Position numbers and translations under genes: made by a program. From assembly GCF_004345735.1 (NCBI RefSeq), contig NZ_SLXL01000001.1, positions 443,876 to 507,875 on the forward strand: a DNA stretch of 64,000 bases. Direction: 5' to 3'. Position 1 is the first letter of the stretch. Each line of letters opens with the position of its first letter. Shown here piece after piece: positions 6,504 to 52,513 of this stretch. The stretch comes from Rhodovulum adriaticum (lineage in GTDB: Bacteria; Pseudomonadota; Alphaproteobacteria; Rhodobacterales; Rhodobacteraceae). The notes below the pieces were generated by a model, which worked only from the letters and a program-made list of their open reading frames with translations, made no database searches and was not told where the DNA came from.

Positions 6504-8380
6504 TCTGCCGCCTCCGTCCCGATGAAGCCGCCGGATTGATGCGCCCAGAACCGGGCGTACAGGCCGTTTTGCGCCAGCAGTTCCGCATGGGTGCCCTGTT
6601 CCGCGATCTGCCCGTCATCCAGCACCACAATCCGGTCCATATGGGCGATGGTGGACAGCCGGTGCGCGATGGCGATCACCGTCTTGCCCTCCATCACGCC
6701 ATACAGGGTTTCCTGAATCGCGGCCTCGACCTCGGAATCCAGCGCGCTGGTTGCCTCGTCCAGAACCAGGATCGGCGCGTCCTTCAGGATCACGCGCGCC
6801 AGCGACACCCGCTGCCGCTGCCCGCCGGACAGTTTCACCCCCCGCTCGCCCACATGGGCATCATAGCCGCGCCGGCCCTGCGGATCCTCAAGGTCCAGAA
6901 TGAAATCATGCGCCTCGGCCCGTTTGGCGGCGGCGATCATCTCGTCCTCGCTGGCCTCAGGGCGGCCATACAGGATGTTGTCGCGGACAGAGCGGTGCAT
7001 CAGGCTGGCCTCTTGCCCGACCATGCCGATATGGCGGCGCAGGGATTCCTGGGTGACATGGGCGATGTCCTGCCCGTCGATCAGGATGCGCCCGCCCTCG
7101 GCGTCGTAGAACCGCAACAAGAGCTTGACCAACGTCGATTTCCCCGCGCCCGACCGGCCCACCAGACCGACCTTTTCGCCCGGTGCGATGGTCAGGTCCA
7201 GCGATTGCAGCCCGCCCGATCCGCGCCCGTAATGGTGGGTCAGCCCATCCAGCCGGATCCCGCCCTGGGCCAGGGTCAGCGGTCGCGCATCCGCCGCGTC
7301 GGTCAGGGCGATAGGCTGGGCGATGGTTTCCATCCCCTCGGCCACCACCCCAAGCGAGCGGAAGAAGCTGGACAGCGCCCACATGATCCAGCTGGTCATC
7401 GCGTTCAGCCGCAGGGTCAGCGCCGTTGCCGCCGCCACGATCCCCACGCTGGCGGCCCCCTGCATCCACAGGGCGATGGCCCAACCCACGACGCCGACGA
7501 TCAGAAACCCGTTCAGCAGTGTCAGGCCCACATCCATCCGGGTGAAAATGCGCATCTCGGCGGCAAAGGTTTCGCGCGTGCGGTCGATCGCCTCTTTCGC
7601 ATAGGCCAGTTCGCGGTCGTGATGGGCGAACAGTTTGACCGACTGCATGTTGGTATAGGCATCCACAACGCGGCCGGTGACCATGCTGCGCGCCTCGGAC
7701 GCGGCCTTGGAGGCCGGGCCGATCCGCTTGATCGTCCAGCGCACCAGCGCGGCATACATCACCAGCCAGATCACCAGCGGGATCGCCAGCCGGGGATCGG
7801 CCTGCCCCAGCAGGATCAGCGCGCCGGTGACATAGGCCGTGGCAAAGGTCAGCGCGTCAAAGACCTGGAACACCGCCTCGCCCGCGGCGGGGGGCGTCTG
7901 CATGATGCGGTTGGCAATGCGGCCGGCGAAGTCCTCCTCGAACCAGCCGACGGACTGGCGCAGCACATGGGCGTGCGAGCGCCAGCGGATCAGCGTGCCG
8001 AAATTGGGCATGATCGCGTTGTTTAGCAGGGCCACATCCAACCCCTGCAACAGCGGGCGCAGCACCAGCAGGAACACCGCCAGCCCGATCAGCGCCCAGC
8101 CGTGACTGTCCCAGACCTGTTCGGGCGTGCCCGTAGACAGCACATCCACCACCTGCCCCAGGGCATGGATCAGCCAAACCTCGACCCCGGCGACCAGCAC
8201 ACCCGCCACCAGCGACAGGACAAAGACACGGCTGAACGGCCGGGCATAGCCCCACAGGAACGGCAGCAACCGGCGGGGCGGCGTGTCGTTCTGGGCGTAG
8301 GGCGCGTAGGGATCGACAAGCGATTCAAAGAAGTCAAAGAAACGGGACAAGGGGGCGGGCCTTCTGGCTGGGTGGTTCAC
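6500..8380 (-). CDS. ABC exporter, fused membrane and ATPase domains
   Basis: A 626-residue half-transporter that would work as a homodimer in the inner membrane. The N-terminal half carries about six hydrophobic helices (PFSRVFVLSLVAGVLVAGV, ALIGLAVFLLVLRPLLQG, AYVTGALILLG, LLNGFLIVGVVGWAIALWM). The C-terminal ATPase has Walker A GRSGAGKSTLVKLL, Q-loop MVGQEASLMHRSV, signature LSGGQRQRVSLARVIL, Walker B APILVLDEATSALD and switch IAHRLST. It is of the lipid/multidrug exporter type; the substrate is unknown. It starts at GTG 8380. It sits between a LysE exporter and an RNA methyltransferase in one leftward operon. Confidence 0.93.
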   Translation of the reverse strand: MNHPARRPAPLSRFFDFFESLVDPYAPYAQNDTPPRRLLPFLWGYARPFSRVFVLSLVAGVLVAGVEVWLIHALGQVVDVLSTGTPEQVWDSHGWALIGLAVFLLVLRPLLQGLDVALLNNAIMPNFGTLIRWRSHAHVLRQSVGWFEEDFAGRIANRIMQTPPAAGEAVFQVFDALTFATAYVTGALILLGQADPRLAIPLVIWLVMYAALVRWTIKRIGPASKAASEARSMVTGRVVDAYTNMQSVKLFAHHDRELAYAKEAIDRTRETFAAEMRIFTRMDVGLTLLNGFLIVGVVGWAIALWMQGAASVGIVAAATALTLRLNAMTSWIMWALSSFFRSLGVVAEGMETIAQPIALTDAADARPLTLAQGGIRLDGLTHHYGRGSGGLQSLDLTIAPGEKVGLVGRSGAGKSTLVKLLLRFYDAEGGRILIDGQDIAHVTQESLRRHIGMVGQEASLMHRSVRDNILYGRPEASEDEMIAAAKRAEAHDFILDLEDPQGRRGYDAHVGERGVKLSGGQRQRVSLARVILKDAPILVLDEATSALDSEVEAAIQETLYGVMEGKTVIAIAHRLSTIAHMDRIVVLDDGQIAEQGTHAELLAQNGLYARFWAHQSGGFIGTEAAE

Positions 8381-8398
8381 GATATAGCGGCGATGGGC

Positions 8399-8986
8399 CT
8401 ACAGGAAAACCATTCCCGCCGACGCGGCCAGCGCCAGCGACATACCCCCCATGAACAGCCGCCATGCCCGTTCACTGGTCAGCAGGTAGGTCAGCAGCGA
8501 CCCGGCAAAGGACCAGAACAGGCAGACGAACAGGTTGATACCCGAAAAGGTGCTGCCCAGGCGCAGCGCCTCTTGCCACGGGGCCAGCCCGGCGGCGTAG
8601 CCGCTGGCCGCGGCCAGGGCGATGGCCCAGACCTTGGGGTTGACCCATTGGAACAGGACCGCCTGCACCAGGGTAAAGGGCCGGTCCACCGCAGCCCCCC
8701 GCGGCGCACGCGCGGCGGTCAGCAGCTTCCACGCCATCCACAGGATCCAGCCCGCCGCCAACACGCGCAGCCCCATCGCCAGCCCCGGCTGCGCCAGCAA
8801 CAGCGCGCCGATCCCCAACGCCGTCAGGCCAGAGGTCACGCCAACCCCGATCACCACGCCCGCCACATGGGGCAGGGTCCGACGGAACCCGAACCGCGCG
8901 CCCGAGGCCGTCAGCAGGACCACGTTCGGCCCCGGCGAAAACAGCCCGGCAAAGACGAACAGGTATAGCGGGTCCAGCCCGCTCAC
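8399..8986 (-). CDS. LysE/RhtB family translocator
   Basis: A 195-residue membrane protein of the amino-acid/metabolite exporter family. The family signature appears as GLFSPGPNVVLLTASGARFG near residues 14-33. It is followed by GVVIGVGVTSGLTALGIGALLL and further hydrophobic helices, with the conserved VNPKVWAIALAA near the middle. Members export basic amino acids, homoserine, threonine or similar small molecules by proton exchange; the substrate is not readable here. The GTG start at 8986 overlaps the cca stop (GTGA), and the next gene follows after 18 bases, so it is part of the 5-12 kb leftward operon. Confidence 0.88.
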   Translation of the reverse strand: MSGLDPLYLFVFAGLFSPGPNVVLLTASGARFGFRRTLPHVAGVVIGVGVTSGLTALGIGALLLAQPGLAMGLRVLAAGWILWMAWKLLTAARAPRGAAVDRPFTLVQAVLFQWVNPKVWAIALAAASGYAAGLAPWQEALRLGSTFSGINLFVCLFWSFAGSLLTYLLTSERAWRLFMGGMSLALAASAGMVFL

Positions 8987-10146
8987 GCCCCGCCCCCGTC
9001 GCCCAGCAGATCGTCCCGCGTCAGGGCAAAGCCAGATGCGATCCAGCGCGCCTCCAGCTCTTTCAAGCGGGCGCCCAGGGCGGGGCCGGACAGGGCAGGC
9101 ATCAGGTCGCGCGGGCGCACCGGGAATTCCGCCGCCGCGCCGCGCGCGATGGCGTCGCGCGCATCGGCCAGGAGCGGCGTTTCCAGCAGCGCGGCCCGCA
9201 GCAGCACCGCGTCCAGCGCCTGATCTACCCCCAGCCGATAGCCCAGCACGGCCGGGCTGTCGGCGCTGCCGATCGCGGCGCGCAAATGGTCCAGCTTGCG
9301 GGCCTCTGCCTTGCTCAGCCGCAGGCGGTCGGCGTGGTCCTGCCCGCCCAGGGCAGCCAGGCGCCGGATCGGGTCGGGCGCGATGCCCCAGCCGGTTTCC
9401 AGGTGCACCAGCACCGGCAGCGCCTTTGCCGCCGCGCCGGGCAGGGCACGGGCCAGCAGGCCGCTGGCCTCCATCGCGGCGACGCTTTGGCCCGGATCGG
9501 GGGCGGATAGCAGCTTCTTCAACTCTGCCCCCACCCGTTCGCGCGACAGGTTTTTCAGACCGTCCGCGTTCGACGCACAGGCCGCCAGCCCATCCGCGTC
9601 CAGCCCGCCCGCCGGATCGCCGTACCAGGCATGAAACCGGAAAAAGCGCAGGATGCGCAGGTAATCCTCGCGGATCCGCGCGTCGGCATCGTCGATGAAC
9701 CGCACCCGCCGTGCGATCAGATCGGGCAGTCCGCCCAGCGGATCGATCACCGTGCCATCGGGCGTGGCATAAAGCGCGTTCATGGTGAAATCGCGGCGGT
9801 GGGCGTCCTCTTGGGCCGTGTCGGCAAAGGCCACGACCGCGTGCCGGCCAAAGGTTTCCACATCGCGGCGAAAGGTTGTCACCTCATGCGGCAGGCCACC
9901 GGCCACCACGGTGATCGTGCCGTGATCGAACCCGGTGGGAACGGGCTTCAGCCCTGCAGCCGCGGCCAGATCCATCACCCGTTCGGGGCGGGCATCGGTG
10001 GCGATGTCGATATCGTTGACCGGCGCGCCCAGCAGGGCGTTGCGCACGCAACCGCCCACGAACAGCGCCTGATGCCCGGCATCGGTCAGCATCGCGCAAA
10101 CCGCCTGGGTGTGATCGGCAAAGAACCACTCGCCCGAAATCCGCAT
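8983..10146 (-). CDS. cca: CCA tRNA nucleotidyltransferase / poly(A) polymerase family
   Basis: Adds or repairs the 3'-CCA end of tRNAs. The N-terminal nucleotidyltransferase domain shows GGCVRNALLGAPVNDIDIATDA with the paired catalytic aspartates. The segments DFTMNALYATPDGTVIDPLGG and IREDYLRILRFFRFHAWYG are the class II signature regions. The C-terminal helical part is more divergent. 387 residues is the usual alphaproteobacterial length. The ATG at 10146 shares a base with the stop of the Nudix gene upstream (TGATG); a GTG one codon earlier is also possible. From sequence I cannot separate a true CCA-adding enzyme from poly(A) polymerase I, but no second candidate is present. Confidence 0.92.
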   Translation of the reverse strand: MRISGEWFFADHTQAVCAMLTDAGHQALFVGGCVRNALLGAPVNDIDIATDARPERVMDLAAAAGLKPVPTGFDHGTITVVAGGLPHEVTTFRRDVETFGRHAVVAFADTAQEDAHRRDFTMNALYATPDGTVIDPLGGLPDLIARRVRFIDDADARIREDYLRILRFFRFHAWYGDPAGGLDADGLAACASNADGLKNLSRERVGAELKKLLSAPDPGQSVAAMEASGLLARALPGAAAKALPVLVHLETGWGIAPDPIRRLAALGGQDHADRLRLSKAEARKLDHLRAAIGSADSPAVLGYRLGVDQALDAVLLRAALLETPLLADARDAIARGAAAEFPVRPRDLMPALSGPALGARLKELEARWIASGFALTRDDLLGDGGGA

Positions 10147-43282: not shown

Positions 43283-44112
43283 TCCCCCAGAACCACCGCG
43301 CGGGCGGCTGCATCCACCTCTGGCCGCAGACCGAACCAGCGTTCGAACCCGGGCGCGGCCTGGTGCAGCAACATGCCCAGACCGTCCACGGTGACACAGC
43401 CCCGCGCGCGGGCCTCTTTCAACAGGGCGGTTTCCAACGGCGCGTAGACGATATCGGTCACCACCGCGTCCGGGGACAGCCCGTCCAGCGGCACGCGGAA
43501 TTCCGGTTTTCCAACCATCCCCAGCGAGGTTGTATTTACCACGGTCGCCGCGCCCTCGATCATGTTGCCGGCCTGAACCCAGTCATAGACGACAATCTTG
43601 GGGCCGAACTCGGCGCGCAGCGCCTCGGCCCGGGCGCGGGTGCGGTTGGACAGGCGGATTTCGCGCACGCCCTGTTCGGCCAGCGCGGACACCACCGCGC
43701 GCGCCGCACCACCCGCACCCAGAACAGCCGCAGGTCCGGCCGCCGGATCCCAGCCCGGCGCGCCCTGGCGCAGGTTGTCGGTGAACCCGACGCCATCGGT
43801 ATTATCGGCATGCACCTTGCCGTCGGCGCGAAAGATCAGCGTATTCGCGGCCCCGATCAGCGCGGCGCGATCCGATACCAGATCGGCCAGGCCCAGCACC
43901 GCCTCTTTGTGCGGAATCGTCACATTCAGCCCCACGAAACCCATCCGGGGCAGGGTGGCCAGCGCATCGCGCAGGTCGTCACGCGATACATCCATGGGGA
44001 TGTAATATCCCGCGATGCCATAGCGTTTCAGCCAATGACCATGCAGGGCAGGGGATTTGGAATGGGCGACCGGCGATCCGATCACGCCGGCCAGCGGTAT
44101 CCTGTCTGTCAT
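43279..44112 (-). CDS. aroE: Shikimate dehydrogenase
   Basis: A 277-residue NADP-dependent enzyme of aromatic amino-acid synthesis. N-terminal substrate site IPLAGVIGSPVAHSKSPALH and NVTIPHKEAVLGL (catalytic Lys), then NTDGVGF (catalytic Asp). The Rossmann loop is AVLGAGGAARAVVSALAE, followed by LSNRTRARAEAL. The C-terminal VTVDGLGMLLHQAAPGFERW is standard. Overlaps maf by ATGA and coaE by ATGA, so it is in the middle of a coupled four-gene operon. Confidence 0.95.
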   Translation of the reverse strand: MTDRIPLAGVIGSPVAHSKSPALHGHWLKRYGIAGYYIPMDVSRDDLRDALATLPRMGFVGLNVTIPHKEAVLGLADLVSDRAALIGAANTLIFRADGKVHADNTDGVGFTDNLRQGAPGWDPAAGPAAVLGAGGAARAVVSALAEQGVREIRLSNRTRARAEALRAEFGPKIVVYDWVQAGNMIEGAATVVNTTSLGMVGKPEFRVPLDGLSPDAVVTDIVYAPLETALLKEARARGCVTVDGLGMLLHQAAPGFERWFGLRPEVDAAARAVVLGE

Positions 44113-44708
44113 GCCTCCAGCACTCCGCGTGTTGTCAGAAAGGTCAGCAGCGGCAACAAGGGCAGGCCCAGCACGTCGAAATAGTCGCCCTCGATCGCGG
44201 AAAACAGGCGAACGCCTTCTTCCTCCAGCTTGTAGGCACCGACGGCCTGGCGCACGCTGTCCCAGTTTCGTTCCAGGTAATGATCCAGGAATGTATCTGA
44301 AAACGGCCGCATCGTCAGCGTTACCCGCCCGACATGCCGCCAGAGCGGTTGCAGATCGTCGTAGATCACCACCGCGGACAGCAGTTCGTGTTTACCGCCG
44401 CGCAGGCGGCGCAGTTGCGCGCGGGCCTCTTCCACCGTTTCGGGTTTGGCCAGGATTGCGCCCCGATGGGCCAACACCTGATCGCACCCGATCACCAGGG
44501 CCTGCGGGTCTTTTTCGGCAACGCGCTGCGCCTTGAAGGCGGCCAGCGCCTCGGCAATCTCTTCGGGTGTGGCGTTTTCCGCCTGCATGCCGTTTCGGAT
44601 CGCGTCCTCATCCACGCGGGCAGGTATCACGTCGAAATCCAGATGCGCCTGTTGCAGCAGATGCCGCCGGATCGGCGAGCCCGAGGCCAGGACGATACGT
44701 TGACTCAT
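44109..44708 (-). CDS. maf: Maf-type nucleoside triphosphate pyrophosphatase
   Basis: A 199-residue house-cleaning enzyme that hydrolyses modified (d)NTPs. It opens MSQRIVLASGSPIRRHLLQQ, the SAS/GSPxR signature. The central ALVIGCDQVLAHRGAILAKPE includes the catalytic Asp of the C/A-D-Q-V motif. GGKHELLSAVVIYDD and VGAYKLEEEGVRLFSAIEGDYFDVLGLPL complete it. The start is ATG 44708; upstream the frame runs into the origin region. First gene of the leftward operon and the left border of the presumed origin. Confidence 0.92.
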   Translation of the reverse strand: MSQRIVLASGSPIRRHLLQQAHLDFDVIPARVDEDAIRNGMQAENATPEEIAEALAAFKAQRVAEKDPQALVIGCDQVLAHRGAILAKPETVEEARAQLRRLRGGKHELLSAVVIYDDLQPLWRHVGRVTLTMRPFSDTFLDHYLERNWDSVRQAVGAYKLEEEGVRLFSAIEGDYFDVLGLPLLPLLTFLTTRGVLEA

Positions 44709-44856
44709 GTCGGGACAACCCTGTGGACAGGACGATGACAAACCGGGGATGAAATGGAACAAACCCGACCTTTACTGCCGGGGTGCCGGGCACGCGACAA
44801 AAAGTCAAGCCAAGCCCCGGATTCCACCCCAAGGGACAAGTGAACCGCATCGCTGT

Positions 44857-44885
44857 GAACGACTCGCCCCCAGACCGAGTCGTTC
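44857..44885. repeat. Perfect inverted repeat inside the presumed origin
   Basis: GAACGACTCG and CGAGTCGTTC, 10 of 10 bases, separated by nine bases. On the + strand AGTTTT follows, so it could act as a weak terminator; it could also be a protein site. Confidence 0.75.
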
Positions 44886-44889
44886 AGTT

Positions 44890-44898
44890 TTACCCACA
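44890..44898. promoter_or_regulatory. DnaA box
   Basis: TTACCCACA, one mismatch to TTATCCACA. It lies just left of the AT-rich segment. Confidence 0.6.
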
Positions 44899-44900
44899 GA

Positions 44901-44952
44901 GTGTTAAGAACAAAAATCCTTGTAAAATATTGATTATATTATGATAATTTAG
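44901..44952. other. AT-rich segment, candidate unwinding element
   Basis: The 30 bases 44921-44950 contain only three G or C. This is far below the surrounding genome and next to two DnaA boxes. Confidence 0.6.
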
Positions 44953-44986
44953 GTAGCGGGCGATCTTGACGAAGTTTTCACCAGAT

Positions 44987-44995
44987 TGATCCACA
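44987..44995. promoter_or_regulatory. DnaA box
   Basis: TGATCCACA, one mismatch to the consensus. Confidence 0.6.
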
Positions 44996-45041
44996 GGCGC
45001 CCAGCCCGTGTGCAGAACGCTGGATAACCCGATAATCCCCA

Positions 45042-45050
45042 CTATCCACA
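45042..45050. promoter_or_regulatory. DnaA box
   Basis: CTATCCACA, one mismatch to the consensus, followed by GG. A weaker box (TAATCCCCA) lies immediately upstream at 45033-45041. Confidence 0.6.
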
Positions 45051-45133
45051 GGCCCTACCAAAACATCATCTCTTTTCTTTTCTTTTTATTTTTTCATAGA
45101 AGAGCAGGACATTGCCCAAGAGCGAGGCCCCCG

Positions 45134-45595
45134 ATGTTCGATCCGATCCTAGATTTCCTGGCCGCGGCCTATCCCTGGACGAAATCCCTGCACATCATCG
45201 CGGTTCTGACCTGGATGGCCGGGCTGTTCTATCTGCCGCGCATCTTCGTCTATCACGTCGAGCGGGTAGAGGTCGGGGACAAGACCGACGAGATCTTTCA
45301 GGTGATGGAGATGAAGCTGTACCGCTACATCATGAACCCGTCGCTGATCGCGGTCTGGATCTTTGGGCTGATGCTGGTCTTTACGCCCGGCATCGTCGAT
45401 TGGTTCACCATCTGGCCCTATACCAAGGGCGCGGCGATCATCGCGATGACCTGGTTCCATATGTGGCTGGGCCTGCGCCGCAAGGAATTCATCGCCGGAA
45501 CCAACACGCGCAGCGGCAAGGCCTATCGCATGATGAACGAGCTGCCGACGCTGCTGATGCTGGTCATCGTGTTTTCCGTGATCTTCAAGTTCTGA
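45134..45595 (+). CDS. hemJ: Protoporphyrinogen oxidase HemJ
   Basis: A 153-residue inner-membrane enzyme that oxidises protoporphyrinogen IX, one step before ferrochelatase. It has four helices. The first, WTKSLHIIAVLTWMAGLFYL, carries the conserved His; the segment LPRIFVYHVE follows, then TWFHMWLGLRRKEF with the conserved His and Lys/Arg pair. Start ATG 45134. The T-rich tract of the origin lies just upstream and may be part of its leader. It is the first gene right of the origin; hemH lies 43 kb to the left. Confidence 0.9.
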   Translation: MFDPILDFLAAAYPWTKSLHIIAVLTWMAGLFYLPRIFVYHVERVEVGDKTDEIFQVMEMKLYRYIMNPSLIAVWIFGLMLVFTPGIVDWFTIWPYTKGAAIIAMTWFHMWLGLRRKEFIAGTNTRSGKAYRMMNELPTLLMLVIVFSVIFKF

Positions 45596-45658: not shown

Positions 45659-45715
45659 ATTTCCCTGTTCATGCCAGGCCGCGCCATTCCTGCGCCCCCG
45701 TTCGCAAAGCATCCC

Positions 45716-46987
45716 ATGATACAAGACAGCCTGAACCTCGCCGATCTCAAGGCGAAAAGCCCCAAGGACCTCCTCGCCATGGCTGAGGAGTTGGAGATCG
45801 AGAACGCCTCGACCATGCGTAAGGGCGACATGATGTTCGCCATCCTGAAAGAGCGCGCCGAAGATGGCTGGGAGGTTGCCGGCGACGGCGTGCTTGAGGT
45901 CTTGCAAGACGGGTTCGGGTTCCTGCGCTCGCCCGAGGCCAACTATCTGCCGGGCCCCGACGATATCTACGTCTCGCCCGACATGATCCGCCAGCATTCC
46001 CTGCGCACCGGCGACACGGTCGAGGGCGTGATGCATGCCCCGCGCGAGAATGAGCGTTACTTCGCGATCACCAAGGTCACCGCGATCAATTTCCAGGAAC
46101 CGGAAAAGGCGCGGCACAAGATCAACTTCGATAACCTGACGCCGCTTTACCCCGATGAGCGGCTGAAGATGGAAATCGAGGATCCGACGATCAAGGACCG
46201 TTCGGCCCGGATCATCGACCTGGTCGCCCCGATCGGCAAGGGCCAGCGCGCCCTGATCGTGGCGCCGCCGCGCACGGGTAAGACCGTGCTGCTGCAAAAC
46301 ATCGCCCATTCGATCGAGACCAACCACCCGGAATGCTATCTGATCGTCCTGCTGATCGACGAGCGCCCCGAAGAGGTGACCGACATGCAGCGCTCGGTGA
46401 AGGGGGAGGTGATTTCCTCGACCTTCGACGAACCGGCGACGCGGCACGTTGCGGTGTCGGAAATGGTCATCGAAAAGGCCAAGCGCCTGGTCGAACACAA
46501 GCGCGACGTTGTGATCCTGCTGGACTCGATCACCCGTCTGGGCCGGGCCTATAACACGGTGGTTCCGTCCTCGGGCAAGGTGCTGACCGGCGGTGTGGAC
46601 GCCAACGCCCTGCAACGGCCCAAACGGTTCTTTGGCGCCGCGCGGAACATCGAAGAGGGCGGTTCGCTGACCATCATCGCCACCGCCCTGATCGACACCG
46701 GCAGCCGGATGGACGAGGTGATTTTCGAGGAATTCAAGGGTACCGGGAACAGCGAAATCGTGCTGGACCGCAAGGTCGCGGACAAGCGTGTATTCCCGGC
46801 GATGGACATCCTGAAATCCGGCACCCGGAAAGAGGATCTGCTGGTCGACAAGGGCGATCTGCAAAAGACCTTTGTTCTGCGTCGCATCCTGAACCCGATG
46901 GGGACGACCGACGCGATCGAGTTCCTGATTTCCAAGCTGAAACAGACCAAGACGAATTCCGAGTTCTTCGATTCCATGAACACCTGA
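45716..46987 (+). CDS. rho: Transcription termination factor Rho
   Basis: A 423-residue hexameric RNA helicase that ends transcripts without hairpins. The N-terminal helical part ([20 protein letters not shown]) leads to the cold-shock-like RNA-binding domain ([39 protein letters not shown]). The ATPase has [20 protein letters not shown] as P-loop, [36 protein letters not shown] as Walker B and the Q/R-loop region. ATG 45716 follows a leader of about 120 bases with two hairpins. Few strong intrinsic terminators are visible here, which fits heavy use of Rho. Confidence 0.96.
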
Positions 46988-48304: not shown

Positions 48305-50179
48305 TTGTTTCACGTGGAACATCGCACCTTTGATGTCGTTGTCGTGGGGGGCGGCCATGCTGGGGCTGAGGCCGCCCACGCCGCCGCACGCATGGGGGCG
48401 CGCACCGCGCTGGTAACCCTGCGGCACGGCGATATCGGCGTGATGTCCTGTAATCCGGCGATTGGCGGGCTGGGCAAGGGCCATCTGGTCCGCGAAATCG
48501 ACGCACTGGATGGCGTGATGGGGCAGGCGGCGGATCGTGCGGGCATCCAGTTCCGCCTGCTGAACCGGCGCAAGGGACCAGCCGTGCAAGGCCCGCGCGC
48601 CCAGGCCGATCGCAAACTTTACGCCCAAGCGATGCAGGATTTCATGGCCGATGCGCCGAACCTACAGGTCATCGAGGGCGAGGTTGCCGATCTGATCGAC
48701 GAGGGCGGGCGCATTGCCGGGGTGGCTCTGGCCGACGGTACGCAAATTGCCGCCTGCGCCGTGATCCTGACGACCGGCACCTTCTTGAACGGGGTCATTC
48801 ATATCGGTGATCGCCAGATCGCGGGCGGGCGCATGGGTGACCGTCCATCGATTCGCCTGGCGGATCGCATCCGCGACTTCGCCCTGCCGCTGGGGCGCCT
48901 GAAAACCGGCACGCCGCCGCGCCTGGACGGGCGGACCATCGACTGGGATCGGCTGGAGGATCAGCCCGGCGACGATGATCCGGTGCTGTTTTCGTTCCTG
49001 TCCAAGGGGGTGTTCGTTCGACAGGTGGCCTGCGGGATCACCCACACCAACCCCCGCACCCATGCGATCATCCGCGAAAACCTGGATCGCTCTGCCATGT
49101 ATGGCGGCCATATAGAGGGCGTCGGCCCGCGCTATTGCCCCTCGATCGAGGACAAGATCGTGCGGTTCGCCGACAAGGAGTCCCACCAGATTTTCCTGGA
49201 ACCCGAGGGGCTGGACGATCCGACTGTCTATCCCAACGGTATTTCGACCTCTCTGCCCGAAGAGGTGCAACAGGCCTATGTGCAGTCCATCGTCGGGTTG
49301 GAACAGGTGAAAATCCTGCAACCGGGCTATGCCATCGAATACGACTATATCGATCCGCGCGCGCTGTCGGCCACGCTGGAACTGCGCGATGTCCCGGGCC
49401 TGTGGCTGGCCGGGCAGATCAACGGCACCACAGGTTATGAAGAGGCCGCGGCCCAGGGTCTGGTGGCCGGGCTGAACGCGGCCCGGCACGCGGCGGGGCA
49501 GGGGCCCGTGACCTTTGGCCGGACCGACAGCTATATCGGCGTGATGATCGACGATCTGGTGACGCGGGGCGTTTCGGAACCCTATCGCATGTTCACCTCG
49601 CGCGCAGAATTCCGCCTGTCGCTGCGGGCGGACAACGCGGACCAGCGGCTGACGCCCAAGGGAATCGAACTGGGCTGCGTGGGCGAAACCCGGCGGACCG
49701 TGTTCGAGGACAAGATGTCGCGAATCGCCGCGGGCCGCGCGCGGCTGGAGGCGCTGTCACTAACCCCGCGCCAGATCGCAGGGGCGGGGATTCGCGTCAG
49801 CGCCGACGGCAACCGCCGAACCGGAATGGATGTGCTGGCCTTTCCCGATGTGGGCTTTGCCGATCTGCTGGCGCTGGACCCAGAGCTTGCCCAGGTCGAT
49901 CCAGAGGCGCGCGCCCAGATCGAACGGGACGCGCTTTATGCGAACTACATCAAGCGGCAGGAACAGGATGTCGCCGCCATGCGCCGGGATGAGGCGCAGG
50001 TTCTGCCCGCGGACTTCCCCTATGACCGGATCGAGGGGCTGTCGAACGAGCTAAAGGCCAAGCTGACCGCCGCCCGCCCCGAAACGCTGGCCCAGGCGGG
50101 GCGCATTGATGGGATGACACCGGCGGCCCTGACCCTGATCCTGGCGCGCCTGCGCCAGATGGAGCGGCGGACCGCATGA
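48305..50179 (+). CDS. mnmG: tRNA uridine-5-carboxymethylaminomethyl synthesis FAD enzyme MnmG
   Basis: The 624-residue FAD/NADH partner of Mnm[22 protein letters not shown] is the FAD-binding loop. [62 protein letters not shown] and the Cys-bearing [13 protein letters not shown] are GidA signatures. The start is unclear: TTG 48305 lies directly after the GAGGA ribosome site, while GTG 48314 has a better 9-base spacing and would drop three residues. The first codons are part of a parS site. rsmG starts inside its stop (ATGA). Confidence 0.95.
48306..48321 (-). other. parS centromere site in the mnmG start
   Basis: On the minus strand this reads TGTTCCACGTGAAACA, matching the ParB-binding consensus TGTTNCACGTGAAACA at every fixed position. 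It overlaps the mnmG start codons. Confidence 0.88.
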
Positions 50180-50784
50180 CCGTCACGCGCGATGTTCCAC
50201 GTGAAACATCCGAAAGGCTGTCCGCCTACGCGGCGCTGCTGCGCAAATGGAACCCGGCGATCAACCTGGTGTCGCGCAGCACGCTGAAGGATCTGGAAAC
50301 CCGGCATATCGCCGATTCGGCCCAACTGTTCGACCTGGCCCCGAAAAATGCAGCACATTGGGTGGATCTGGGCAGCGGCGGCGGTTTTCCCGGTCTGGTG
50401 ATTGCGATCCTGGCCGCAGACGCAGCCCCGCAGATGCGCGTGACCCTGATCGAGAGCGATCTGCGCAAGGCAACGTTCCTGCGCACGGCGGCGCGCGAAC
50501 TGGGATTGGAAAACACCAATGTCCTGAGCCAGCGAATCGAGGCCGCGCCACCGCAGGGCGCGGATGTGTTGTCGGCGCGCGCGCTGGCGCCGTTGACCGA
50601 CCTGTTGTCCTTTGCAACCCGCCATCTGGCGCCTGATGGCGTTGCCCTGTTCCCCAAGGGCGCGCGCCATGATCAGGAACTGGAGGCAGCGCTTGCAACC
50701 TGGCGGTTCACGGTCCAGAAAATCCCCAGCACGACAGATCCCCAGGCCGTCATCCTGCAAATCGGAGGCATAGCCCGTGTCTGA
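50176..50784 (+). CDS. rsmG: 16S rRNA (guanine-527-N7) methyltransferase
   Basis: A 202-residue SAM-dependent enzyme that modifies G527 of 16S rRNA. The SAM site is [21 protein letters not shown], followed by [23 protein letters not shown] and [17 protein letters not shown], typical GidB/RsmG motifs. Start ATG 50176 overlaps the mnmG stop (ATGA). Codons 6-11 (Asp-Val-Pro-Arg-Glu-Thr) are dictated by an embedded parS site. The last eight bases contain the GTG start of parA. Confidence 0.94.
50193..50208 (+). other. parS centromere site in the rsmG start
   Basis: TGTTCCACGTGAAACA, a full match to the ParB site consensus. It is identical to the site in mnmG but points the other way, 1.9 kb apart. 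The parA-parB pair begins about 570 bases downstream. Confidence 0.92.
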
Positions 50785-51586
50785 TCCCACTCGCCCCGCC
50801 GGGCCAAAGATTGTCGCCATCGCCAACCAAAAGGGGGGCGTGGGGAAAACCACCACCGCGATCAACCTTGCTGCCGCCCTGGTCGAAGAGGGCCGGCGCG
50901 TGCTGATCGTCGATATCGACCCGCAGGGCAATGCCTCGACCGGGTTGGGGATCGAGGCAGAGCAGCGCACCCACACGACCTATGACCTGTTGCTGGAGGA
51001 TGCGCCGCTGCAAGAAGTGATTCGCCCCACCTCGATCGACGGCCTGCTGATCGCGCCCGCGACAACGGATCTGAGTTCCGCAGATATCGAAATGGTCTCG
51101 ACCGAAAAGCGCAGTTTCCTGTTGCACGATGCGCTGCGGCAACCGGCGATCGACGATTACAAGCTGGATTATGTCCTGATCGATTGCCCCCCGGCCCTGG
51201 GGCTGCTGACGGTCAACGCCATGGTCGCCGCGCATTCCGTGCTGGTCCCCCTGCAAAGCGAGTTTTTCGCGCTGGAGGGGCTGTCGCAGCTGATGCTGAC
51301 GGTGCGCGAATTGCGGCAGAGCGCCAATCCGGGCCTGCGGATCGAGGGCGTGGTCCTGACCATGGCGGATCGCCGCAACAACCTGTCGCAACAGGTCGAA
51401 AACGATGCGCGGGCCTATCTGGGCGATCTGGTGTTCCAGACCGTGATTCCCCGCAACGTGCGCCTGTCCGAGGCGCCCTCTTTCGCGATGCCGGTCCTGG
51501 AATACGATCCCGCGTCCAAGGGGTCACAGGCCTATCGCGCCCTGGCGCGCGAGATGCTGCAATCCAAGGTTCCTGCGACGGCGTAA
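50777..51586 (+). CDS. parA: Chromosome partitioning ATPase ParA
   Basis: A 269-residue deviant-Walker ATPase that moves the ParB-parS complex during segregation. KIVAIANQKGGVGKTTTAINLA contains the deviant Walker A (KGGVGKT), and RRVLIVDIDPQGNASTGLG and YVLIDCPPALGLLTVNAM follow with the Walker A' and B parts. The start is GTG 50777 with GGAGG eleven bases upstream, overlapping the rsmG end by eight bases. parB follows after 12 bases. Confidence 0.95.
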   Translation: MSDPTRPAGPKIVAIANQKGGVGKTTTAINLAAALVEEGRRVLIVDIDPQGNASTGLGIEAEQRTHTTYDLLLEDAPLQEVIRPTSIDGLLIAPATTDLSSADIEMVSTEKRSFLLHDALRQPAIDDYKLDYVLIDCPPALGLLTVNAMVAAHSVLVPLQSEFFALEGLSQLMLTVRELRQSANPGLRIEGVVLTMADRRNNLSQQVENDARAYLGDLVFQTVIPRNVRLSEAPSFAMPVLEYDPASKGSQAYRALAREMLQSKVPATA

Positions 51587-51598
51587 GAAGGGCAGAAC

Positions 51599-52513
51599 AT
51601 GGCAAGCAAGAAACCGGAAAAACGCGGTCTGGGGCGGGGTCTGTCCGCGCTGATGGCAGATGTGAACCTGACGCCCGAGGATACCGCTGGCACCGTCACC
51701 GCGCCTGCGCGCGCGGATCAGGTGGTTGCACTGGACCAACTGGAACCCAACCCCGACCAGCCCCGCCGCCAGTTTTCCGAAGAGGCGCTGAAGGAACTGG
51801 CCGATTCGATCCGGGCCAAGGGTGTGATCCAACCGCTGATTGTCCGCCCCAGCCCGCGAAACCAGGGCCGGTATGAAATCGTCGCGGGCGAACGTCGCTG
51901 GCGTGCCGCGCAGATGGCCCAACGGCACGAGGTGCCCATCCTTGTGCGCAGCCTCGACGATACCGAGGTGCTGGAAATCGCCATCATTGAAAATATCCAG
52001 CGGGCCGATCTGAACCCGGTGGAAGAGGCGATGGGCTATCGCCAGTTGATGGATCGATTCGGCCATACTCAGGAAAAACTGGCAGAGGCCTTGGGCAAGA
52101 GCCGCAGCCATGTGGCGAACCTGTTGCGGCTGTTGCAATTGCCGGACGAGGTGCAGGCCTATCTGCGGGATGGACAGCTGAGCATGGGCCACGCCCGCGC
52201 ATTGGTCAGCACCGAGGATCCCGCCGCGCTGGCCCGCAGGGTGATCCAGGGCGGGCTGTCCGTGCGCGAAACCGAGAAGCTGGCCAAGGCCGGGACGGAC
52301 GCCGAAAAACCTGCGCCGCGCCGCAAGACCCCGCAAAAGGATGCCGATACCCGCGCGTTGGAACAGGATCTGTCCGCAAGCCTGGGTATGGGCGTGTCGA
52401 TTGAGCACAGCACGGACGGATCGGGCCGGGTGGTCATCGCCTACAAGGATCTGGACGCCCTGGACCGCCTGTGCGGGGTGCTGGGAAATACACCGTCCGG
52501 CAGTTTCGATTGA
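51599..52513 (+). CDS. parB: Chromosome partitioning protein ParB
   Basis: A 304-residue CTP-dependent DNA clamp that loads at parS and spreads. The N-terminal CTPase domain has VVALDQLEPNPDQPRRQF, ADSIRAKGVIQPLIVR and YEIVAGERRWRAAQMA (GERR motif). Then come ENIQRADLNPVEEAMGYRQL and the helix-turn-helix EALGKSRSHVANLLRLLQLP. The C-terminal dimer domain ends near CGVLGNTPSGSFD. ATG 51599. Its targets are the parS sites in mnmG and rsmG. Ends seven bases from the convergent hemW stop. Confidence 0.95.
   Translation: MASKKPEKRGLGRGLSALMADVNLTPEDTAGTVTAPARADQVVALDQLEPNPDQPRRQFSEEALKELADSIRAKGVIQPLIVRPSPRNQGRYEIVAGERRWRAAQMAQRHEVPILVRSLDDTEVLEIAIIENIQRADLNPVEEAMGYRQLMDRFGHTQEKLAEALGKSRSHVANLLRLLQLPDEVQAYLRDGQLSMGHARALVSTEDPAALARRVIQGGLSVRETEKLAKAGTDAEKPAPRRKTPQKDADTRALEQDLSASLGMGVSIEHSTDGSGRVVIAYKDLDALDRLCGVLGNTPSGSFD

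Follow-up and report, generated by a model that had tools for sequence, protein, structure and literature searches.

A predicted chromosomal replication origin between maf and hemJ in Rhodovulum adriaticum and its conserved core in Rhodobacterales

The window analyzed here is a 64,000-nucleotide stretch of the draft genome of Rhodovulum adriaticum (3.35 Mb in 36 contigs), corresponding to positions 443876-507875 of the 721,196-bp contig C1. It contains a 425-bp intergenic gap (44709-45133 of the window; C1:488584-489008) from which maf and hemJ diverge, as an earlier note on this DNA had described. The maf ATG is at 44708 on the minus strand and the hemJ ATG at 45134 on the plus strand, and homologues align from these positions. 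On the hemJ side the gap is followed by hemJ, rho, mnmE, mnmG, rsmG, parA, and parB, and on the maf side by maf, aroE, coaE, and dnaQ, and then by a divergent secB (names given without a Pfam call reflect a reading of the open reading frame sequences). The hemJ product belongs to family UPF0093 (HemJ) and is 95% identical to the HemJ of Rhodovulum bhavnagarense. The absence of hemE from the window was confirmed, the single hemE found being located on contig C9. The description of the gap as the longest in the window is consistent with the data and unproven, as a crude gene caller gave four longer gaps, each containing a long open reading frame, and the maf/hemJ gap itself shrinks to 245 bp under the longest-ORF starts of that caller. 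Elsewhere in the window, positions 7001-10000, over part of an ABC transporter gene and its neighbors, carry a strong AT skew (+0.22).

Table 1. Features in and around the maf/hemJ gap, in window coordinates
Feature	Position	Strand	Basis
maf	44109-44708	-	Pfam Maf
Predicted oriC, intergenic	44709-45133	none	boxes, stability, conservation, skew
DnaA-box-like, 2 mismatches; relatives have conserved CCCTGTGGA there	44722-44730	-	alignment
Inverted repeat, 9 bp, 9-nt loop	44858-44884	none	fold, genome search, alignment
DnaA box TTACCCACA, 8 of 9	44890-44898	+	conserved alignment columns
Least stable 40-mer of window, AT-rich	44912-44951	none	stability calculation
IHF-type consensus, exact match (YAANNNNTTGATW on + strand)	44923-44935	-	motif match
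DnaA box TGATCCACA, 8 of 9	44987-44995	+	motif match
DnaA-box-like, 2 mismatches	45009-45017	-	motif match
DnaA-box-like, 2 mismatches	45019-45027	-	motif match
DnaA box TAATCCCCA, 2 mismatches, first of abutting pair	45033-45041	+	motif match
DnaA box CTATCCACA, 8 of 9, second of abutting pair	45042-45050	+	motif match
GC spacer GGCC, 4 nt	45051-45054	none	
Trinucleotide-repeat segment CTA CCA AAA CAT CAT C	45055-45070	+	periodicity in relatives
Pyrimidine tract, in second unstable segment	45070-45095	+	sequence, stability
hemJ	45134-45595	+	Pfam UPF0093
rho	45671-46987	+	longest ORF; real start possibly further in
parS, exact, at mnmG start	48306-48321	+	sequence match
parS, exact, at rsmG start	50193-50208	+	sequence match
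parA	50777-51586	+	
parB	51599-52513	+	

The arrangement of maf, gap, and hemJ is retained in 77 of 80 loci around hemJ from named relatives; of the exceptions, L014 and L067 stop near a contig end, and different genes occupy the place of maf in L070 (Paracoccus thiocyanatus). Together with the window, these loci provide 78 gaps of 333-452 bp with a mean GC content of 0.47, compared with 0.66 in the window. The 78 gaps contain 242 DnaA boxes at no more than one mismatch (9.2 in shuffled sequences), and box columns are seen throughout their alignment. The three boxes matching eight of nine positions that the earlier note had listed in the R. adriaticum gap were recovered (starting at 44890, 44987, and 45042, all on the plus strand) and make up three of the seven one-mismatch matches in the entire window. 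Shuffling of the gap gave a mean of 0.09 such boxes, with none of 1000 shuffles reaching three; at up to two mismatches the gap holds seven boxes against a shuffle mean of 1.21, and none of 1000 shuffles reached seven. The only other three-box cluster in 524 kb of sequence from this genome (C1:262-300, L086) includes an inverted pair, lies directly 3' of an msrP/msrQ-like gene pair, and has no match to the core model described below.

Several further motifs were surveyed. The exact match in the gap to an IHF-type consensus has counterparts with at most one mismatch in 40 of the 78 gaps (7.4 in a locally shuffled control) and exact counterparts in 11 (0.45 in the control); the motif was not found at that place in 38 of the 78, including the closest relative (L002). 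The inverted repeat at 44858-44884 is perfect, forms 11 pairs including flanks when folded (DNA fold z -6.2), occurs once in the genome, and falls in alignment columns left empty by most relatives. Each of its arms carries one GANTC, a motif that is not enriched in the gaps (mean of 1.05 per gap versus 1.48 in shuffled sequences; three in the R. adriaticum gap). No DnaA box with a nearby TTATCC was found in the genome. Two weak matches to RNA families were rejected, their scores being far under the gathering thresholds.

The AT-rich stretch of the earlier note is present as described, with 27 of 30 positions being A or T at 44922-44951 (the AT-richest 30-mer of the window), and it proved to share its instability with a second segment: the window's two least stable 40-mers start at 44912 and 45060. 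The pyrimidine tract reported earlier was also found, in the second of these segments. A possible view of the origin is that melting begins at the AT-rich 44912-44951 and not at the repeat and pyrimidine block, in keeping with the position of the window's least stable 40-mer, with the finding that the region near the AT-rich stretch is the least stable in 36 of the 78 gaps, and with a figure legend that puts unwinding in the AT-rich region in Caulobacter (PMC8959179). This is nevertheless unlikely, given that the least stable 40-mer lies near the hemJ-side tract in 42 of the 78 gaps, that conservation in the alignment peaks at 45032-45085 (i.e., in the box, repeat, and pyrimidine block at 45033-45095, and not in the AT stretch), that the AT stretch bears the IHF-type motif, and that the order of box, spacer, and repeat matches that of published unwinding modules. 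The preferred reading is that of the repeat and pyrimidine block, in which the pyrimidine tract is proposed as the unwinding region and the segment 45055-45070 as the putative single-strand contact of DnaA.

The exact 16-mer TATCCACAGGCCCTAC was present in just four of 196 Rhodobacterales genomes, and a profile was therefore used instead. This sequence-only core model (R1; 90 positions, built from 65 hemJ-flanked sequences) spans the tandem DnaA boxes, GC spacer, trinucleotide repeat, and pyrimidine tract. At E<=0.01, R1 matched 183 of the 196 genomes, with a single match in 182 of them and two matches in G184; the remaining 13 gave no match at this threshold, and a second match was not found in the R. 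adriaticum genome (E<=0.01). Among the best 150 matches per list, core and hemJ could be paired in 134 genomes, in all of which the core precedes hemJ by 13-61 bp in the same orientation, a position that is partly given by construction because R1 came from hemJ-flanked sequences. In 16 genomes the core was among the matches listed and hemJ was not; of the 12 that were inspected, three contain hemJ and nine lack it (tblastn, E<=1e-6) and retain the core between maf and rho. The placement of the locus beside hemJ is thus right for R. adriaticum, while hemJ is not the defining neighbor. Of three R1-negative genomes with hemJ that were inspected, two have a weak match in the gap, which measures 2.3 kb in one of them, and the third has none. 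At two loci (L235 in G141 and L236 in G110), maf and hemJ are ~2.3 kb apart and the core match is absent or weak; the origins at these loci may have been interrupted or moved.

The gap might be a mere promoter region for maf and hemJ, in which DnaA boxes regulate transcription. The orientation of the two genes agrees with such a role, as does a single sigma-70-like match (44920-44948; 0.4 expected). However, the core outlives the loss of hemJ and also that of maf, as seen in P. thiocyanatus, where hemJ is preceded, in the absence of maf, by an element of similar length that has DnaA boxes and ends in the same block (L070:3590-3994). In addition, the core is single-copy in all but one of the Rhodobacterales genomes that match it, recurs beside hemE or COG1806 in other families, and coincides with a skew minimum and with parS sites, as detailed below, making a promoter region alone a highly improbable explanation. 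The genes that occupy the place of maf in P. thiocyanatus are oxygenase/reductase-like.

GC skew was sampled on contig C1 in 24 stretches, 23 of them 20 kb long and the other 1.2 kb. A skew minimum had been predicted at ~44.9 kb of the window, and this was borne out for the sampled contig: when summed from 400 kb, cumulative skew reaches its minimum (-0.157) at 490 kb, where the 480-490 kb bin holding the gap comes to an end. Positive skew is absent from all 10 stretches sampled before 400 kb. To the right the minimum is shallow, and the sum stays low to 560 kb (still -0.140) before rising. KOPS-like sequences were tallied, giving counts too small for use. Sequences within one mismatch of parS occur exactly twice in the 3.35 Mb genome, both of them in the window, 3.2 and 5.1 kb off the gap. 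The dnaA and dnaN genes are ~127 kb from the gap (dnaA at C1 ~616-617 kb), and the predicted origin is therefore not beside dnaA. In Paracoccus ferrooxidans (L291:1-1344) and P. denitrificans (L293), dnaA is carried on a replicon of 1.5-1.7 Mb labeled as a plasmid, accompanied in P. ferrooxidans (L291) by a gene for the DNA polymerase III beta subunit.

Among four relatives, the agreement between skew and locus was sharp in one, offset by 60-140 kb in two, and unclear in one. The minimum bin of Sedimentitalea nanhaiensis (2.49-2.50 Mb) contains the gap (near 2.499 Mb); in Maritimibacter sp. HL-12 the gap is at 1.56 Mb and the sum falls through 1.66 Mb (the sample end), with positive skew at 1.70 Mb; the single-contig genome G019 changes skew sign at 170-230 kb and has its core at 293 kb (60-120 kb apart); and Pseudooceanicola batsensis has no clear switch at the locus. 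These offsets, the draft state of the genome, and the distance of dnaA-dnaN would fit a real origin elsewhere (e.g., beside dnaA or on another contig), with the gap as a relic. There is very little probability in this account: no further R1 match was found in the genome (E<=0.01), the 20 kb around dnaA have positive skew on both sides with no switch, and the core is retained by 183 of 196 Rhodobacterales genomes.

The origin of Caulobacter and Rickettsia is located between hemE and COG1806 (Brassinga et al., cited in PMC1914354). When R1 was run over 142 genomes of the class Alphaproteobacteria, 52 matched (E<=0.01), many of them weakly, and four of the best matches have hemE on one side and the COG1806/Kinase-PPPase gene (Pfam) on the other. 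The model was rebuilt with five class loci (R2), and this version matched 81 of 387 class genomes, with no match in the other 306 (E<=0.001). Twenty-eight of its best 30 matches are in an origin context, the exceptions being L271 and L290, and 20 of 22 best matches remain so when three own-family and five training loci are removed. Of the 27 best matches from outside Rhodobacterales, 25 are beside hemE, COG1806, maf, or rho, with gene orders such as COG1806-core-hemE-hemJ, maf-core-hemE, and COG1806-core-rho. At six named hemE loci R2 gave no match, and the core is therefore not claimed for the whole class. By eye, two sphingomonad hemE gaps contain short runs of the trinucleotide CNA, and no CNA repeat adjoining hemE was seen in the gaps of Rhizobiaceae and Methylobacterium. 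COG1806 was not found in any of the five genomes searched for it. The gene orders suggest that an ancestral COG1806-origin-hemE-hemJ-rho arrangement has lost COG1806 and hemE in the R. adriaticum lineage, which would be why hemJ now touches the gap.

The combination of C1 skew, the pair of parS sites, order-wide conservation, and the occurrence of the core at the hemE/COG1806 position elsewhere supports the earlier proposal of a chromosome origin. The gap is very probably the origin of the chromosome and the orthologue of the hemE/COG1806 origin known from other Alphaproteobacteria. According to the mechanism proposed from these sequence features, DnaA would occupy the boxes that flank an IHF-induced bend, and a DnaA filament would run from the abutting boxes (45033-45050) over the GC spacer to capture one strand of the repeat at 45055-45070, three bases per protomer. 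The duplex would then open into the pyrimidine tract, where helicase would be loaded; two forks would depart, and the copies would be segregated by ParB bound to the two parS sites at a distance of 3-5 kb. CtrA would exert no direct gating of the origin.

Comparison with described origins indicates that this one is ordinary in kind, and that the new lead is a deviant trinucleotide repeat together with an altered DnaA residue. The oriC of E. coli is laid out as unwinding element, box R1, and IHF site (PMC10316083). It likewise has an unwinding region beside a box and an IHF site between box groups, and its repeat sequence and neighbors differ from those of the gap. In Rhodobacteraceae, oriC has been assigned in 101 genomes (Kopejtka et al. 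2019, PMC6699656), and the gap shows the features used there, namely a DnaA-box cluster in an intergenic low-GC region, a GC-disparity minimum (here on contig C1), and proximity to parAB/parS; the conserved core and the history of the flanks are described here and do not appear in the accessible part of that work. Origin regions of Rhodobacter sphaeroides have similarly been placed by skew and a search for replication and partition loci (PMC6315104). With the origin of Caulobacter and Rickettsia, as described in PMC1914354, the gap shares orthologous position, DnaA boxes, an IHF-type motif, and high AT content. A Caulobacter-type Cori is matched by the gap in its IHF site (as a sequence match), and not in its hemE/COG1806 flanks. 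The full CtrA site (TTAA-N7-TTAA) does not occur in the R. adriaticum gap at up to one mismatch; the 78 gaps hold 38 sites compared with 25.7 in locally shuffled sequences, a slight excess not counted as enrichment, and three exact sites compared with 1.6.

With the basal unwinding system (BUS), which consists of DnaA boxes plus DnaA-trios (PMC8287927 and PMC10721633), the gap shares tandem boxes, a short GC spacer, a trinucleotide repeat, the polarity of these elements, and a repeat starting with a 3'-GAT-5' unit; it differs in that the middle base of the repeat is unfixed in relatives. The published pattern (at least three 3'-NAN-5' within 16 nt of a box; PMC8287927) was not found in the window, and occurs somewhere in 56 of the 78 gaps (17-31 in shuffles), often away from the core. 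The gap should therefore be filed neither as a Caulobacter-type, CtrA-gated origin nor as a BUS by the published rule, and the origin probably works like a BUS.

The periodicity of the repeat was measured as lag-3 identity in the 21 nt past the spacer. Across 25 out-of-order cores that represent 17 families this is 0.576, compared with 0.314 after shuffling, and in the 21 nt upstream of the boxes it is 0.262 versus 0.274 (17 rows long enough). The value is 0.613 versus 0.335 in 20 non-training cores and 0.61 with one core per family (13 cores), with 0 of 2000 shuffles reaching it in either case; for 65 Rhodobacterales cores it is 0.532 versus 0.317. The repeat unit is CNA. Its middle base is T in roughly 50% of cases at the first two units and more rarely later, and otherwise A or C and seldom G. 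Runs of at least three CNA units occur in 13 of the 25 out-of-order cores (0.23 in shuffles), while the published middle-adenine rule describes nine of them (7.7 in shuffles). The R. adriaticum core has two consecutive CNA units and no more. DnaA-trios lacking the middle adenine have been suspected to exist (PMC8287927), and no description of the core or of a CNA-type trio in Alphaproteobacteria was found in the titles and abstract openings of the open-licence papers listed in literature searches.

In the structure of B. subtilis DnaA, the middle adenine is contacted by Asn187 and the guanine by Arg202 and Glu228; these residues are not universally conserved, though their properties are generally maintained (PMC10721633). 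Twelve DnaA rows were aligned to 8BTG, eight of them alphaproteobacterial (seven from records labeled as plasmid). At the Asn187 position, all eight alphaproteobacterial proteins carry an aromatic residue or His: Tyr is found in R. adriaticum and in both Paracoccus sequences, Phe in the Sphingomonas protein, Trp in those of Shinella, Sinorhizobium meliloti, and Rhizobium johnstonii, and His in a Rickettsiales protein that is possibly a paralogue. E. coli has Gln there, and B. subtilis, Priestia, and Acetoanaerobium have Asn. Eleven of the 12 rows retain Glu228, the R. johnstonii reading frame not reaching it, and Arg202 is replaced by Lys in seven of the eight alphaproteobacterial proteins and in E. 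coli. We tentatively suggest that many Alphaproteobacteria, including R. adriaticum, may open their chromosome by a deviant trio that reads CNA on the strand of the boxes and is captured as 3'-GNT-5', and that DnaA and the origin may have co-evolved a relaxed base-capture code. The guanine and Glu228 would be kept under this suggestion, held with somewhat less than even confidence, and the middle adenine and Asn187 (now Tyr, Phe, Trp, or His) would not. The coupling of DnaA and repeat is a hypothesis because the Trp of Rhizobiaceae is not accompanied by a clear CNA repeat and because E. coli, too, has a residue other than Asn.

For Rhodobacterales, in which the usual software often yields several candidate origins per genome (PMC8116508 and PMC6699656), the gap would provide a fixed origin and a searchable 90-bp core. 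Sequence similarity of Wolbachia-related origins is described as confined to close relatives (PMC1914354); the core gives the predicted Rhodobacterales origin a sequence link to its hemE/COG1806 counterpart in other families. Finally, the CNA repeat is a concrete candidate for the trio without a middle adenine that was suspected in PMC8287927, and it comes with a matching change in DnaA.
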